A DNA stretch of 64,000 bases from Bryobacteraceae bacterium (GTDB lineage Bacteria; Acidobacteriota; Terriglobia; Bryobacterales; Bryobacteraceae). Below are positions 17,247 to 23,318 of the stretch, piece by piece. The position numbers and the translations under genes are program-made. Position 1 is the stretch's first letter. Every line of letters begins with the position of its first letter. Location: positions 248,001 through 312,000 of the forward strand of contig BPGD01000001.1 in assembly GCA_026002855.1 (NCBI GenBank). Reading direction: 5' to 3'. The notes beneath the pieces were generated by a model, which searched no databases, had not been told where the DNA came from, and was given only the letters and a program-made list of their open reading frames with translations.

Positions 17247-18857
17247 TCACACGCCCCAGCAGTAGTCTTCCACCGCTTTTTCGATGCTCTCGTCCCTGTC
17301 GGCCAGCCGCATCAGCTCCAGCCGGATGGCGTCCACAAGCGCGTTCCAGCTCGCCTCGATGATGTTTTCGCTCACGCCCACCGTGCACCAGGAGCGGCGA
17401 TGGTCGCTCCATTCCACCAGCACGCGCACCTTGGAGGCGGTCCCGCGTTCGGTCGAAATGACGCGCACCTTGTAATCGGTGAGCCGCACGTTGGCGATGG
17501 CCGGATACACGGTGGACAGGCACTGCCGCAGACACAGGTCGAGCGCGTTCATCGGGCCTTCGCCGGTGGCGGTGGCCGAATGGATCGCGTCGTTCACGCG
17601 CAGGATGACAGTGGCCGTGGTCACCGAGTCGCGGTTGCCGATCTTGCGCGTTTCCACTTCCAGCGAGACGACCTCGAAGAAGTGCAGGCCCGGCTGGAGC
17701 GCCTCACGGACCAGCAGTTCAAAGGTGCCTTCGGCGGCCTCCAACTCGTAGCCGAGGTATTCCATCGTCTTGATCCGGTCCAGCAGCTCGCGCTTGGCCT
17801 CTTCGGTCAGCCGGTCCTTCAGGCCGTACTGTTCGAGCTTGTAGAGCACGTTGCCGCGCCCGCTCATGTCGCTGAGCAGCACGCGCTGGCGGTTGCCGAC
17901 GACGCTGGGCTTGATGTGCTCGTAGGTGATCGAATCCTTCAACACGGCCGACACATGCACGCCGCCCTTGTGGGCGAAGGCCGCCCGCCCGACGAAGGGC
18001 TGGTTGGGCGGCAGCGGGAGGTTGGCGAGCTCGGCGATGTAGTGGCAGACCGAAGTCAGCGAGGTCAGCTTCTCCGGCCCAACGGTCGTGTGGCCCATCT
18101 TGGCTTCGAGGTTGGCGATCACCGAGGCCAGGTTCGCGTTGCCGCAGCGTTCCCCGTAGCCGTTCATGCAGCCCTGGACGTGAGTGACGCCCTCGCGCAC
18201 GGCGGCCAGCGTGTTGGCCACTGCCAGGTCGCTGTCATTGTGGCAGTGAATGCCAAGCACGCCGTCGAAGCGGCGGCGGACTTCGGCGACGATCTCGGCC
18301 AGGCGATCGGTGAGCGTGCCCCCATTGGTGTCGCACAGCACCAGCACGTCGGCGCCGGCCTCTTTGGCGGCCTCCAGCGTCCGCAGGGCGTAAGACGGGT
18401 TCGCGTTGAAGCCGTCGAAGAAGTGCTCGGCGTCGTAGATGACCTCGCGGCCGTGTTCCTTCAGGTATCGCACCGTGTCGCTGATCAGCGCCAGGTTGTC
18501 CTCCAGCGAGATGCCGAGCACGCGCGTGGCATGGATGTCCCAGCTCTTGCCGAAGATGCTGATGGCGGGCGTTTGCGCCTCGATCAGCGCGGCCACGTTG
18601 GGATCCTTTTCCACCGGATTGCGGGCGAAGCGCGTCGAGCCGAAGGCGGTGAGGCGGGCGTGCTTGAGCGGGATGCTCTTCATGCGCTCGAAGAACTCCT
18701 TGTCCTTCGGGTTGGACATGGGCCAGCCGCCCTCGATGTAATCGATGCCCAGCTCGTCCAGCTTCTGGGCGATGAGGATCTTGTCGTCCACCGAGAACGA
18801 GACGGACTCGCCCTGCGTGCCGTCGCGGAGCGTGGTGTCGAATGTCCAGATGCGCAT
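17247..18857 (-). CDS. cimA: (R)-citramalate synthase
   Basis: A 536-residue enzyme that condenses pyruvate and acetyl-CoA to citramalate, the threonine-independent entry to isoleucine. The N-terminal TIM barrel has TTLRDGTQGE, the HMGL-like signature, and the metal histidines in GIHCHNDSDLAVAN. The C-terminal LeuA allosteric domain (about 410-536) would bind isoleucine. It differs from 2-isopropylmalate synthase by the FSVDDKI region and by overall CimA-type length. Start ATG 18857 follows AGGAG; the preceding TTG is less likely. It is last in the ilvB-ilvN-ilvC-cimA order, 104 bases after ilvC. Confidence 0.92.
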   Translation of the reverse strand: MRIWTFDTTLRDGTQGESVSFSVDDKILIAQKLDELGIDYIEGGWPMSNPKDKEFFERMKSIPLKHARLTAFGSTRFARNPVEKDPNVAALIEAQTPAISIFGKSWDIHATRVLGISLEDNLALISDTVRYLKEHGREVIYDAEHFFDGFNANPSYALRTLEAAKEAGADVLVLCDTNGGTLTDRLAEIVAEVRRRFDGVLGIHCHNDSDLAVANTLAAVREGVTHVQGCMNGYGERCGNANLASVIANLEAKMGHTTVGPEKLTSLTSVCHYIAELANLPLPPNQPFVGRAAFAHKGGVHVSAVLKDSITYEHIKPSVVGNRQRVLLSDMSGRGNVLYKLEQYGLKDRLTEEAKRELLDRIKTMEYLGYELEAAEGTFELLVREALQPGLHFFEVVSLEVETRKIGNRDSVTTATVILRVNDAIHSATATGEGPMNALDLCLRQCLSTVYPAIANVRLTDYKVRVISTERGTASKVRVLVEWSDHRRSWCTVGVSENIIEASWNALVDAIRLELMRLADRDESIEKAVEDYCWGV

Positions 18858-18961
18858 CAAAAACTCCTGCGCCCCTGCGGGGCCTTCGCCGCCGGCTTCG
18901 GGCCGGCGCGCGGTCTGCCTGGGCGGCGCCCCGGCCCGCCGGGCCGGGCGCCGCCCGTGTC

Positions 18962-19969
18962 CTACTGTTCGACCTTCTTCTTTTTCAGGAAGGTCATCAT
19001 TTCGCGCAGCTCGGCGCCGACCACTTCAATCGGGTGGTTGCGCGCGGCCTCGCGCATGGCAAGAAAATTCTTTCTGCCGCTGCGGTTTTCCTCCATCCAT
19101 TCGCGGGCGAAGGCGCCGGACTGGATTTCGGCAAGAATCCTGCGCATTTCGGCCCGGGTCTGCTCGTTGATGATGCGTGGGCCGCGGGTATAGTCACCGT
19201 ATTCGGCCGTGTCGGAGACCGAATAGCGCATGTAGCTGAGCCCGCCCTCGTAGATGAGGTCGACGATCAGCTTCAGCTCGTGGAGGCATTCGAAATAGGC
19301 GATTTCAGGCGCGTAACCCGCCTCGACAAGCGTTTCAAAGCCGGCCTTGATCAGCTCGCTGACGCCGCCGCACAGCACCGTCTGCTCACCGAACAGGTCG
19401 CTTTCGGTCTCCTCGCGGAAGGTGGTCTCAATGACGCCCGCCTTCAGCGACCCGAGCGCCAGCGCGTAGGCAAGCGCGTTCTGAAGCGCGCGCCCCGAAG
19501 CGTCCTGCGCCACTGCGACCAGCGCCGGCACGCCCTGCCCTTCCAGGAAGACTTCGCGGACGCGGTGGCCCGGCGCCTTGGGCGCCACCATCGAGACGTC
19601 CACGCCCTCGGGCGGACGGATGAAGCCGAAGTGAACGTTGAACCCGTGTGCGAACATCAGCGTCTTGCCGGGTTTCATCGACGGGGCGATGTCAGAGCTG
19701 TAGAGATCGGCCTGGATGTGATCCGGCACGAGAATCATGATGAAATCGGCGCGGGCAGCCGCCTGGGCGGGATCCAGCACGGTCAGGCCGGCATTTTCCG
19801 CCTTCGCGCGCGAGCGCGAACCGGCAGGCAGTCCGACGACCACCTGGACGCCGGAATCGCGCAGGTTCAGCGCGTGGGCGTGACCCTGCGAGCCGTAGCC
19901 GATGATGGCGACGGTCTTTCCTTGCAAGGGCTCGAGCGAGCCGTCCTGTTCGTAGTAACGCTTGGCCAT
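18962..19969 (-). CDS. ilvC: Ketol-acid reductoisomerase, class I
   Basis: A 335-residue enzyme that converts acetolactate and acetohydroxybutyrate to dihydroxy acids in valine, leucine and isoleucine synthesis. The N-terminal Rossmann domain has [19 protein letters not shown]. The C-terminal knotted domain holds metal ligands in [18 protein letters not shown] and downstream acidic residues. Length is that of the short class I form. The residues after strand two ([15 protein letters not shown]) are basic and serine-rich, which fits NADPH. It follows ilvN by 22 bases. Confidence 0.96.
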
Positions 19970-19991: not shown

Positions 19992-20534
19992 CTATCGGGT
20001 GTGTGCGGGTTCGGATTGAGGCTGCGACTTCGGGATCGGCGGGGCCAGCTTCAGCCGCTTGGGCTCGAGCGAGACGGCCACAAGGCCCGAGCGCGTCACC
20101 TCGATCTCGCCGTAGGTTTCCATGACGGCGATGAATTCTTCCAGCTTCTCGGGATCGCCGCTGGCTTCCAGCGCGAACCCCTCCACCGAGCTGTCGACGA
20201 CACGGGCGCCGAAGATCTCGGCTTCCTTGAGGATCGCCGTGCGGTTGTCGAGGCTCGTGCGGATGCGCACGAGCACCATCTCGCGGATCACCGCCGGCGC
20301 TTCGGTCAGGTCCACGGCCTGGAGGACGTTCACCAGCCGGTTCATCTGCTTGATCAGCAGCGGCCGCAGCCGTGGCTCCACATCGACGCAGATGGTCATC
20401 CGCGACAGCGACGGGTCGAGCGTCCGCGCCACCGTGAGCGATTCAATGTTGTAGCCGCGCTGCGACAGCAGCCCGGTGACGCGCATCAGCGCGCCCGGTT
20501 TGTTCTCCATCAGCAGGCTAATGGTCATCAGCAT
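19992..20534 (-). CDS. ilvN: Acetolactate synthase regulatory subunit
   Basis: A 180-residue small subunit with an N-terminal ACT domain ([31 protein letters not shown]) that binds valine for feedback inhibition, and the usual C-terminal ALS_ss domain (about 80-160). Start ATG 20534 is chosen with AGGAG 9 bases upstream; the TTG at 20543 would touch the ribosome site. The last 20 residues, rich in P and K, extend beyond the usual end. It sits between ilvB and ilvC. Confidence 0.95.
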
Positions 20535-20560: not shown

Positions 20561-22291
20561 TCAGGCGGGCACTTCGACCGGCTTCGGCGGGCCGAGAACC
20601 ATTTCATTGATCGCCGCCCCGGCAGGCACCATCGGATACACGTTTTCGAATGGCGAGACGCGCACGTCCATGAGCACCGGGCCCGGGTGGCGGATGGCGT
20701 CTTCGAGCGCAGGGCGCAGCTCCGAGGGCTTCTCCACGATGCGGCCGCGAATGCCATAGGCATCGGCCAGCTTTTCGATGTTCGGAAAAGCCTCGATCTG
20801 CACGGCGCTGAGGCGGCTCTGGTAGAACAGATCCTGCCACTGGCGCACCATGCCCAGGTAGCCGTTGTTCATGATGATCACCTTCACCGGCAGGCCCTGA
20901 TTGGCGATCGTGGAGATCTCCGGAATCGACATCTGGAAGCCGCCGTCGCCGACGATGGCGATCACCAGCGCCTCCGGATGCGCCACCTGCGCGCCGATCG
21001 CCGCCGGCAGGCCGAAACCCATCGAGCCAAGCCCCGACGAGCTCAACCAGGTGCGCGGCCGGTCGAAACGGATGAACTGCGCCGCCCACATCTGATGCTG
21101 GCCGACGTCCACGCTGACAATCGCCTGGCCATTGGCGATGCGGTCGATCTCCACCATCAGGTGCTGCGGCTTGATCTCGTCGGCGCTGAAAACAGGCTTC
21201 AGCGGGTGCTCCTCCTGCCAGGCGCGGATCTGCCGCCACCACTCGCGGCGCTCTTTCTCGCGCAGCGGCTTCATCTCCGGCGCCATCTCCCGGAGCACGC
21301 GGACGAGCTTGGAAAGCACCTTCTTCGCGTCGCCGACGATGGGCAGGTCAGCGGCGCGGTTCTTGCCGATCTCGGCCGGGTCGATGTCGACGTGGATCAC
21401 CTTGGCGTGCGGCGCAAACGACGCCAGCCGTCCGGTGACGCGGTCGTCAAACCGGACGCCGAGCGCGATCAGCAGGTCGCACTCGTACATGCCCATGTTG
21501 GCCGCATAGGAACCGTGCATGCCGGGCATCGAAATGAAGTTCGGGTGGTTGCCGGGCAGCGCGCCAAGGCCCATCAGCGTCAGCACCGCCGGCGCGTCCA
21601 GCGTCTCCACCAGCTCGCGCAGCTCTTCATGCGCGCCGCTCGAAATGATGCCGCCGCCCGCGTAAACATACGGCCGCGACGCCTCCCACATCATCTGCGC
21701 CGCCCGCCGGATCTGCCCCGCGTGGCCCTCCGTCACCACCTTGTAGCCCGGCAGGTGGATGGCGTGCACCGGCGTGTAATGGGCCTGGCCCTGGAGCACG
21801 TCCTTGGTGATGTCGACCAGCACCGGACCGGGCCGTCCCGTCGAGGCGATGTAGAAGGCCTCGTGAATCACCGACGCCAGGTCTTTGATGTCCTTCACCA
21901 GGTAGTTGTGCTTCGTGGCCGAACGCGTGATGCCGAAAGTGTCGGCCTCCTGGAAGGCGTCCGAGCCAATCAGCTTCGAGGACACCTGTCCGGTCAACGC
22001 CACCACCGGGATCGAGTCCATCATGCAGTCCACCAGCCCGGTGACCAGATTCGTTGCGCCCGGCCCCGATGTGGCGCACGCCACGCCGACCTTGCCGGTG
22101 GAGCGTGCATAGCCGGAAGCCATGAAACAGGCGTTTTCTTCGTGCCGGACCAGAATGTGGCGGATCGCCCCTTCGTAGATCGCATCATACAGCGGCAGCG
22201 TCACACCGCCCGGATAGCCGAAGATCACCTCCACGCCTTCGCGTTGCAGGCACTCCATCAGGATGCGCGCGCCGCTCATTGTCTGCGCCAT
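20561..22291 (-). CDS. ilvB: Acetolactate synthase catalytic subunit
   Basis: A 576-residue thiamine diphosphate enzyme that joins two pyruvates, or pyruvate and 2-oxobutyrate. It has the catalytic glutamate region (EVIFGYPGG), the FAD-binding middle domain, and the ThDP motif GDGGFQMSIPEISTIANQG near the C-terminus. Start ATG 22291 begins MAQTMSGARILMECLQ; a longer frame to 22384 would run into the attenuator. It is the first structural gene after the leader peptide and terminator at 22367-22554, so transcription is very likely controlled by branched-chain amino-acyl tRNA supply. Confidence 0.96.
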   Translation of the reverse strand: MAQTMSGARILMECLQREGVEVIFGYPGGVTLPLYDAIYEGAIRHILVRHEENACFMASGYARSTGKVGVACATSGPGATNLVTGLVDCMMDSIPVVALTGQVSSKLIGSDAFQEADTFGITRSATKHNYLVKDIKDLASVIHEAFYIASTGRPGPVLVDITKDVLQGQAHYTPVHAIHLPGYKVVTEGHAGQIRRAAQMMWEASRPYVYAGGGIISSGAHEELRELVETLDAPAVLTLMGLGALPGNHPNFISMPGMHGSYAANMGMYECDLLIALGVRFDDRVTGRLASFAPHAKVIHVDIDPAEIGKNRAADLPIVGDAKKVLSKLVRVLREMAPEMKPLREKERREWWRQIRAWQEEHPLKPVFSADEIKPQHLMVEIDRIANGQAIVSVDVGQHQMWAAQFIRFDRPRTWLSSSGLGSMGFGLPAAIGAQVAHPEALVIAIVGDGGFQMSIPEISTIANQGLPVKVIIMNNGYLGMVRQWQDLFYQSRLSAVQIEAFPNIEKLADAYGIRGRIVEKPSELRPALEDAIRHPGPVLMDVRVSPFENVYPMVPAGAAINEMVLGPPKPVEVPA

Positions 22292-22366: not shown

Positions 22367-22415
22367 GAAAACCAAAAGGGCCACCCGCGGGAGGTTCGCC
22401 CGCCTGGTGGCCCTT
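22367..22415 (-). terminator. Attenuator terminator in the ilvB leader
   Basis: On the minus strand a 10-bp stem (AAGGGCCACC with GGTGGCCCTT, 22406-22415 and 22376-22385) encloses a 5-bp inner stem (22399-22403 with 22387-22391). It is followed by TTTTGGTTTTC (22377 down to 22367). It lies 25 bases after the leader peptide stop and 76 bases before the ilvB start, so it can stop transcription before the operon. Confidence 0.9.
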
Positions 22416-22451
22416 CGATTTGTTCCGGTTGCAGGGTCACTCAGGCGGGCG
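22397..22451 (-). promoter_or_regulatory. Alternative antiterminator pairing in the ilvB leader
   Basis: CGCCCGCCTG at the end of the leader peptide frame (22451-22442 on the minus strand) is perfectly complementary over 10 bases to CAGGCGGGCG inside the 5' half of the terminator (22406-22397). The two pairings exclude each other. A ribosome at the leader stop would cover the first segment and let the terminator form; a ribosome stalled earlier would leave it free. Confidence 0.8.
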
Positions 22452-22554
22452 CCGGTACAGCGACTCCAATCCGAATGATCCCTACAATGACGAGAATGGA
22501 GACACCACCGGACGGCAGGAGCTGCGGGTCACAGACTGTCGTCCCGGAAGGCAT
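22441..22554 (-). CDS. ilv operon leader peptide
   Basis: A 37-codon frame from ATG 22554 to TGA 22443-22441, in no annotation-size class. Residues 18-33 read VSILVIVGIIRIGVAV, with 11 of 16 Val, Leu or Ile. The run sits 25-90 bases before a strong terminator and an alternative stem, the layout of classical branched-chain attenuators. GTG at 22557 and GTG at 22563 are other possible starts; none has a strong ribosome site. The control codons include all three branched-chain amino acids, so the signal is probably multivalent. Confidence 0.82.
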   Translation of the reverse strand: MPSGTTVCDPQLLPSGGVSILVIVGIIRIGVAVPAPA

Positions 22555-22712
22555 CACGAACACAGCTTAGCGGAAAAGCCAGGGAAATGCAATAGGCCAT
22601 GACAATAAATTGTTTTTATGGATCTATTCGACGAGCCGCAACAATAAAGCGCAACTGGGGCTCTCCGATAACCGCCCTCAGATTCCCCCGCCGGGATGCT
22701 TGTACTGACCCA

Positions 22713-22775: not shown

Positions 22776-23318
22776 ATGACGGCGGCAGGAACCATTCCCA
22801 TGAGCGTGAGCCAAGCGGGCCAGGCCGGCTCGTTCAATGAATTCTTCCACCGGACAAACCGGAGAGCCTACGTCTTTGCCCTGCACCTGAGCGGGAACCG
22901 CGAAGACGCCATGGACATCCTCCAGGAAGCGTACCTGAGGATGCATCGCCGGTGGAGCGAGTGCGAGGGCGAGGCCAAGGCTGTCGCATGGCTCTATACG
23001 ATCGTCCGCAACCTGGCCCTCGATCACCTGCGCCGGCGCGCACGGCGCGCCGAAGCTGAGATCCAGGAGAGCACCCTCAGCTCGTCGGCGGACGGGCCGG
23101 AGCGGGCCGCGGCGCGGGAGGAGCTGTCGCGGCGGCTGTGGGATGCGATCCGAAAACTGCCGGCCGAGCAGCGCGAGATTCTGCTGCTGCGGGACTGGCA
23201 CGGGTTGAACTATTCCGAGATCGCCCAGGTGCTGGGGCTGAGTCTCGGAACGGTTTCCTCGCGGATCCACCATGCCCGGGAGAAGATCCGCGAGGCGATG
23301 GAGGACTATCTGCGATGA
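22776..23318 (+). CDS. ECF-type RNA polymerase sigma factor
   Basis: A 180-residue sigma70-family factor with only regions 2 and 4. Region 2 runs from FNEFFHRTNRRAYVFALHL through DILQEAYLRMHRRW to AWLYTIVRNLALDHLRRR. Region 4 has LPAEQREILLLRDWHGLNYSEIAQ and the DNA-reading helix LGTVSSRIHHAREKI. It would direct transcription of a stress or surface regulon once freed from its anti-sigma factor, which starts inside its stop codon. A start at ATG 22800 is also possible, with AGGA 9 bases upstream. Confidence 0.9.
   Translation: MTAAGTIPMSVSQAGQAGSFNEFFHRTNRRAYVFALHLSGNREDAMDILQEAYLRMHRRWSECEGEAKAVAWLYTIVRNLALDHLRRRARRAEAEIQESTLSSSADGPERAAAREELSRRLWDAIRKLPAEQREILLLRDWHGLNYSEIAQVLGLSLGTVSSRIHHAREKIREAMEDYLR

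Follow-up and report, generated by a model that had tools for sequence, protein, structure and literature searches.

A predicted branched-chain attenuator ahead of ilvB-ilvN-ilvC-cimA in a family of Acidobacteriota, with leader codons that track gene content

The ilvB-ilvN-ilvC-cimA gene run in a genome of Acidobacteriota is very probably controlled by a classical ribosome-mediated transcription attenuator, a reading based on sequence comparison and folding models. Computation established a leader open reading frame (ORF), the stems, their conservation and covariation, a codon content that tracks the genes downstream, and the spacing of the promoter; together, these point to leader translation, ribosome stalling, termination, and a response to starvation. 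The codon content is the strongest evidence for the attenuator, and the analogy with enterobacterial ilv/leu attenuation that was drawn in the initial annotation is supported by the conserved leader, by both stems, and by this codon content.

Gene Run and Leader Elements

The window, i.e., the whole stretch of DNA analyzed, comprises 64 kb within a 4.44 Mb one-contig genome (labelled G000). The host lineage is Acidobacteriota, and the closest named relatives of its IlvB are found on contigs labelled Acidobacteria or Bryobacterales (71–73% identity). The names ilvB, ilvN, ilvC, and cimA were assigned by NCBIfam models (Table 1); for ilvN, the profile search listed 19992–20519, and the ATG at 20534 was taken from the sequence. 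Citramalate synthase, the product of the final gene, provides the pyruvate route to isoleucine. The proposal that this run stands behind the leader is borne out by the NCBIfam matches in G000 and by the position of cimA behind ilvC in 20 of 20 relatives checked for gene order, all of which keep the order ilvB-ilvN-ilvC-cimA, and cimA is presumably co-transcribed with ilvBNC. The ilvC-cimA gap of about 100 bp (18858–18961, minus strand) contains very strong GC hairpins with no T tract directly after them, which could set the level of cimA against that of ilvBNC. In two other genomes (G100 and G047), fewer than 25 bp separate the two genes.

Table 1. Features of the leader region and of the gene run in G000 (positions within the window).
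Feature	Position	Strand	Basis
cimA, citramalate synthase (final gene of the run)	17247–18857	-	TIGR00977, 697 bits
ilvC, ketol-acid reductoisomerase	18962–19969	-	NF004017 and TIGR00465 above cut-off (profile span 18962–19966)
ilvN, acetolactate synthase small subunit	19992–20534	-	NF008864 and TIGR00119 above cut-off
ilvB, acetolactate synthase large subunit	20561–22291	-	TIGR00118, 798 bits
T tract TTTTGGTTTT	22368–22377	-	Sequence
Terminator hairpin (3:4)	22377–22414	-	Folding, T tract, compensatory changes
Segment 3 (terminator 5' arm and antiterminator 3' strand)	22397–22414	-	Fold, covariation
Segment 2 (final leader codons, stop, and next bases; antiterminator 5' strand)	22433–22451	-	Fold, covariation
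Leader ORF, 37 codons and TGA	22441–22554	-	ATG 22554, TGA 22443–22441
Control codons VSILVIVGIIRIGVAV, 11 of 16 Ile/Val/Leu	22456–22503	-	Sequence; family codon-position profile
Segment 1 (protector hairpin 5' strand; pairs with 22429–22444)	22471–22487	-	Minimum free energy fold
-10 element TAAGCT	22564–22569	-	Family promoter alignment
-35 element TTGCAT	22587–22592	-	Family promoter alignment
AT-rich dyad ATAA-N7-TTAT (T-N11-A), probable regulator site	22605–22619	-	Conserved columns

The leader ORF and the hairpin are located between the ilvB start (22291) and an opposite-strand ORF (22776–23318, plus strand), which is sigma-factor-like by eye. The leader peptide reads MPSGTTVCDPQLLPSGGVSILVIVGIIRIGVAVPAPA; its 37 codons and the density of branched-chain codons reported in the initial annotation were both recovered on the minus strand (22554–22441 and 22503–22456, respectively). 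Three elements expected of an attenuator are present: a small ORF ahead of the genes that carries a cluster of codons for the operon's end product, a predicted intrinsic terminator between the leader ORF and the first gene (from folding and covariation), and, from folding, an antiterminator that is mutually exclusive with the terminator and would be toggled by ribosome position.

The terminator starts 26 nt past the leader stop and, folded in isolation (22414–22368), reaches −28.5 kcal/mol (z = −3.4), with 0 of 200 shuffles equally stable. The description of a strong terminator followed by a T tract holds for the hairpin, which was found at 22414–22377, and less well for the tract, which is interrupted by GG in G000; moreover, a generic consensus scan detected neither promoter nor terminator at this locus. 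The perfect 10-nt alternative pairing described earlier was found (22451–22442 with 22406–22397), and the antiterminator exceeds this first description, comprising 16 pairs broken by a single bulge and a single mismatch (22450–22433 with 22414–22398) and occupying nearly all of the terminator 5' arm. The segment that contains it folds in isolation to −34.3 kcal/mol, a stability equaled by 1 of 200 shuffles. A protector hairpin (1:2) is present in the best fold of the whole G000 leader, in keeping with the label of a complete attenuator; that label fits less well in that two folding models conflict on the ribosome-free state, and the generality of the protector across the family is doubtful on the folding results.

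Upstream of the leader, a TTGCA-type hexamer, a spacer of 17–18 nt, and TAnnnT were found in 78 of 84 relatives. Both hexamers served as search criteria, so that the independent signs of a promoter are the spacer (17 nt in 72/78), a C at the fifth -10 position (71/78), the flanking columns, and the start codon. A start codon in the leader frame occurs 5–8 nt past the -10 box in 39 of the 78 promoters, compared with 2 and 1 for the remaining frames; at 5–15 nt, the counts are 60 of 78, as opposed to 2 and 4. The dyad, of the form ATnA-N7-TnAT, sits 12 nt upstream of the -35 element, and its key columns are kept in 62–75 of the 78 aligned promoters; it resembles a LysR-type regulator site, which suggests that initiation is regulated as well.

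In G000, transcription is predicted to start at about 22557, as estimated from spacing, and an in-frame GTG at 22557 immediately precedes the ATG at 22554; use of this alternative start would make the mRNA leaderless. Because a start codon in the leader frame often lies only a few bases past the -10 box, initiation on the leader mRNA is probably leaderless or nearly leaderless. A transcription start downstream of 22441 had been named as a finding that would speak against the attenuator, and a conserved promoter-like element is instead seen upstream of the leader start. Across three Acidobacteria genomes, the estimated share of leaderless genes averages 13% (PMC3160421).

Conservation and Covariation in the Family

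The family sample comprised 101 genomes, 93 of which had ilvB at E ≤ 1e-150. Three of these were left out because the match starts at a contig end (G003, G059, and G072) and two because the match is partial (G038 and G073, both of which are matched by the covariance model described below); with one of the 88 retrieved upstream regions too short for the leader scan (G083), 87 were usable. A leader and a terminator were found in 84 of these 87 regions, with 5 to 11 Ile/Val/Leu in the best 12 codons and at least 8 in 63 of 84 real regions versus 23 of 840 shuffles. The ORF chooser favored ORFs ending in Ala or Pro-Ala, and without this bonus the same ORF was best or joint best in 83 of 84 cases; the hairpins of G005 and G054, for which the automatic choice was off, were placed by hand. 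The leader ends in Pro-Ala in 66 of the 84 sequences and in Gly-Pro-Ala in 44, often encoded by GGCCCCGCC TGA, and GGCGGGG is common in the 5' half of the terminator. Conservation of the leader frame and of both stems among relatives, which had been proposed as a check, was found for all three in these regions and in the covariation analyses. As a side observation, the Ile and Val codons of the family leaders differ from those of ilvB itself (ATT 0.60 vs 0.21, GTA 0.52 vs 0.09), and GTG is used at 0.04 in the control region vs 0.40 in ilvB, which fits a choice of starvation-sensitive codons or an avoidance of G+C pairing.

No terminator hairpin with a T tract was found upstream of ilvB in G069, G084, and G050, and the covariance model gave no match at the ilvB loci of these three genomes or of a named contig (L033). 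The TTGCAT element is kept (by eye) in all four, though the leader-terminator pair is absent (L017, L150, and L160 for the three genomes, respectively, and L033); G069 has a match to the model elsewhere in its genome, and one further ilvB upstream region that keeps the TTGCAT element has a degenerate pair (L339, G368). The covariance model built from the 84 sequences matched 180 of 200 family genomes at E ≤ 0.01, training genomes included, and in G000 it recovered the leader described here, a match to the opposite strand of that site (E = 0.005), and two weak matches (E = 0.2 and 1).

The terminator covaries clearly and the antiterminator moderately. For the 13 terminator pairs, 89.2% of the cells are paired versus at most 55.6% when the structure is slid, and cells with both sides changed number 83 versus 29.8 in shuffles (0/500), where these shuffles, like the permutations and Mann-Whitney values, ignore relatedness among the genomes; there was no clear excess in double-change pairs (7 vs 6.0; 160/500) or in pair types (19 vs 18.6; 251/500). 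For the seven pairs of the antiterminator core, 87.1% of the cells are paired versus at most 67.9% when slid, some of the unpaired cells being one-base alignment shifts in sequences with an extra base. Double-change cells number 16 versus 8.2 in shuffles (0/500), a count exceeded when the structure is slid by -3 columns (20 cells); double-change pairs number 4 versus 2.3 (40/500), and pair types 12 versus 9.5 (19/500). The duplex of each sequence's own segments 2 and 3 reaches −26.3 versus −23.7 with partners permuted (0 of 5000 permutations as good). In one genome (G029), the ORF stops earlier and CCCCGC stands behind the stop codon, with the antiterminator pairing still kept; selection therefore acts on the RNA and not on the end of the peptide.

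Ribosome Position and the Proposed Switch

Two folding models were compared, namely an order-of-synthesis model, in which the RNA downstream of the ribosome is folded before the terminator 3' arm exists (84 sequences), and a full-length equilibrium model (82 sequences, G005 and G054 left out). Under the former, the mean antiterminator probability is 0.97–1.00 for ribosomes stalled at codons -14 to -6, counted from the stop, and 0.08 for a ribosome at the stop. The control codons are distributed accordingly along the leader, with Ile/Val/Leu frequencies per position of 0.45–0.90 at codons -14 to -5 and of at most 0.09 at codons -4 to -1 (82 sequences); a ribosome at one of the latter codons would cover segment 2. 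In a swap control at codon -9, own segments 3 are slightly separated from foreign ones (0.999 vs 0.977), the foreign segments still pairing because the scaffold is conserved.

Under the full-length model, the terminator in G000 has a probability of about 1 when the ribosome is absent or sits at the stop, and of 0.003–0.54 when it is stalled at codons -13 to -7. The family mean favors the terminator at all stall positions (0.58–0.96, with at most 39% of the 82 sequences below 0.5), and the switch therefore needs the order of synthesis. The two models also disagree in other respects: without a ribosome, the full-length model favors the terminator in 80% of 82 sequences, G000 included, whereas before the terminator 3' arm is made the antiterminator is favored in 83% of 84 sequences (0.68 in G000). 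For early stalls in G000 (codons -20 to -14), the full-length terminator probability is 0.98–1.00 and the order-of-synthesis antiterminator probability is 0.94–1.00, and the models are likewise at odds for G000 at codons -6 and -5.

In the proposed mechanism, the transcript would begin with the leader start codon or have only a few bases in front of it, so that the leader ORF would be read from an mRNA with little or no 5' untranslated sequence. With sufficient Ile, Val, and Leu, the ribosome would reach the stop codon and cover segment 2, leaving segment 3 to pair with segment 4, and transcription would end before ilvB. A shortage of any of the three amino acids would stall the ribosome in the Ile/Val run with segment 2 open; segment 2 would then pair with newly made segment 3, and RNA polymerase would read into ilvBNC-cimA. 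With a ribosome stalled very early, or with none at all, the protector hairpin 1:2 may bring termination back, a point on which the folding models disagree.

Leader Codons and Gene Content

In the family, the codons of the leader follow the genes behind it. Among the last 20 codons, leaders before ilvBNC-cimA carry on average 3.85 Ile, 4.57 Val, and 1.46 Leu (74 genomes), leaders before ilvB without cimA carry 0.50, 5.12, and 2.88 (8 genomes), and leaders before a stand-alone cimA, on the same RNA scaffold, carry 4.45, 0.73, and 3.45 (11 genomes). The ranges per 20 codons are 1–6 Ile and 2–8 Val for the fused set, 3–6 Ile and 0–2 Val before stand-alone cimA, and 0–2 Ile before split ilvB; five of the 74 fused leaders have one Ile or fewer. 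The fused set was defined by cimA close behind ilvB on the same contig, with seven ambiguous genomes excluded (cimA on another contig or unmatched). Examples of leaders from the split clade are MNRLLTLVPLVVAVANSTA and MKRLSSVVVLLSVVAYCAA before ilvB, and MLTFLSIGIIIGAGITSPA and MLLIIQGILLISVAITGPA before stand-alone cimA, the 11 genomes of the latter set including G296 (ilvB not found) and, from outside the clade, G382 with its additional copy of cimA.

On a 50-genome IlvB tree, 10 genomes with cimA elsewhere share one fully supported branch, where the position of cimA was shown for nine and assumed from the genus for G368; the split-clade mean covers 8 genomes, with G050 (leader lost) and G368 (degenerate) omitted. 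The separation of cimA is a single event on this tree, and the codon shift therefore counts once; the copies in G382, G335, and G386 are further single cases. In G335, the gene behind a Leu-rich leader (SGILNLSLLALGLLTGPA) is leuA, and in G386 an Ile-rich leader, AMAIIMIANSA, stands before an ilvN-like gene and ilvA (NCBIfam identity for both). These extra copies were obtained from a covariance-model search of 37 selected genomes, with the matches in G076 and G077 left out, and their leader frames were chosen by Ile/Val/Leu content. Weaker matches in G013, G357, G350, and G001 have no branched-chain gene behind them. Ile- or Ile/Val/Leu-rich leaders on the same scaffold were also seen before ilvN-like (ACT) genes away from ilvB at three loci (L323, L324, and L313 in G080, G008, and G002), the gene identity resting on NCBIfam for G008 and G002 and on tblastn for G080.

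No Ile/Val/Leu-rich leader was seen upstream of leuA or ilvD in G000; directly upstream of this leuA (L239, around 3184896) lies a divergent ORF that resembles a LysR-type regulator by eye. Among matches to leuA in 108 family genomes, the best 30 loci were scanned for Ile/Val/Leu-rich ORFs and none was convincing, so the Leu-rich copy in G335 is a single case. It is moderately likely that one ancestral scaffold acted as a re-codable cassette that was copied before cimA, leuA, and ilvA, with its control codons swapped to match the end product, and that the Ile codons left the ilv leader when cimA left the operon.

Alternative Explanations and Known Attenuators

It is improbable that the terminator is regulated by an RNA-binding protein, by Rho, or by a ligand, with the ORF as a by-product of base composition. 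Such control without translation draws support from the similar-looking ilvB leader of Streptomyces coelicolor, which is independent of its codons in that their replacement had no effect (PMC1262725, in its accessible part), and leader translation in G000 is itself something we infer; however, the codon content follows the gene content while the RNA scaffold stays, only in the leader frame does the start codon sit at a constant spacing from the -10 box, and Ile/Val/Leu-dense leaders far outnumber those in shuffled regions. As to a ligand-binding or other RNA family, an Rfam search that included T-box, leader families, and riboswitches returned no match at gathering score within the window.

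Less probable still is a leader that controls ilvB translation, by coupling or re-initiation, and not transcription. Between the leader stop and ilvB lie 82–231 nt (median 118; 84 sequences) with a terminator-like hairpin and a T tract, whereas for the leader genes near structural genes that were proposed to aid re-initiation, Acidobacteria included, the accessible part of PMC4833913 gives a distance peak at about 10 bp. A chance placement of a Val/Ile-rich ORF before an unrelated terminator borders on the negligible, since conservation and covariation in 84 genomes and the further copies before cimA, leuA, and ilvA speak against it, even though 7 of 1000 dinucleotide shuffles of the 450-nt region ahead of ilvB produced an ORF in which 9 or more of 12 codons were for Ile, Val, or Leu. 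The ribosome-mediated attenuator is therefore retained as the preferred reading.

The enterobacterial ilvGMEDA, ilvBN, and leuABCD attenuators combine a leader peptide rich in branched-chain residues, mutually exclusive antiterminator and terminator hairpins, and a biosynthetic operon downstream, and the present leader is alike in all three respects. It differs in that the antiterminator 5' strand consists of the last leader codons and the stop, that the leader ORF probably starts at or close to the 5' end of its mRNA, and that the run includes cimA. The ilvBNC leader of Corynebacterium glutamicum shares the ilvB operon, the Ile/Val/Leu leader, the competing hairpins, and a leaderless mRNA in its model (PMC11857589), and the predicted actinobacterial ilvB leaders share all but the last (PMC1262725); both belong to another phylum, and the codon shift with gene content is seen here only, as far as the accessible parts of these sources allow comparison. 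Similarly, the trpL transcript of Sinorhizobium meliloti begins at the leader ATG, although trpL belongs to a trp operon and to another phylum (PMC7298713).

Wider Occurrence and Novelty

In a phylum sample of 197 genomes, 99 had ilvB at E ≤ 1e-120, and 69 upstream regions were read, one of them from the family. An Ile/Val/Leu leader with a terminator and a competing pairing was found in four families (f10, 1/1; f20, 3/5; f30, 2/2; f58, 1/1) and, less clearly, in f22 (2/10) and f23 (2/6); no convincing terminator was found for the candidates G127 (f23) and G190 (f50). The family covariance model weakly matches 6 of 9 such loci supplied (E = 1e-5 to 3e-3), and a common origin of the leaders across the phylum is possible. 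At the other loci, ilvB stands behind ilvD or no leader was seen; in several families ilvB lies directly behind ilvD, so that a leader would have to precede ilvD.

According to the accessible part of a 2010 survey, a function could be associated with hardly any of the predicted acidobacterial attenuators, and until the survey's own case in Firmicutes all demonstrated leader peptide systems came from Proteobacteria and Actinobacteria (PMC2965389). No branched-chain leader in Acidobacteria and no cimA leader were found in the titles and abstract openings searched; subscription literature lay outside this scope, so an earlier prediction is possible. In mechanism and logic, the system follows known attenuators. 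As far as searched, the new points are its occurrence in this phylum, where it is nearly universal in one family, the copies placed ahead of cimA, leuA, and ilvA, and the change in leader codons that goes with a separate cimA.

Biological Significance

If the attenuator is true, the branched-chain genes of this organism would be switched on only when branched-chain amino acids run short. The family-wide covariance model can serve to locate additional leader genes. Genomes in which cimA is separate from ilvBNC amount to a natural experiment, in which one scaffold has nearly lost its Ile codons in one place and kept them in the other, and they make codon specificity testable in pairs of relatives.
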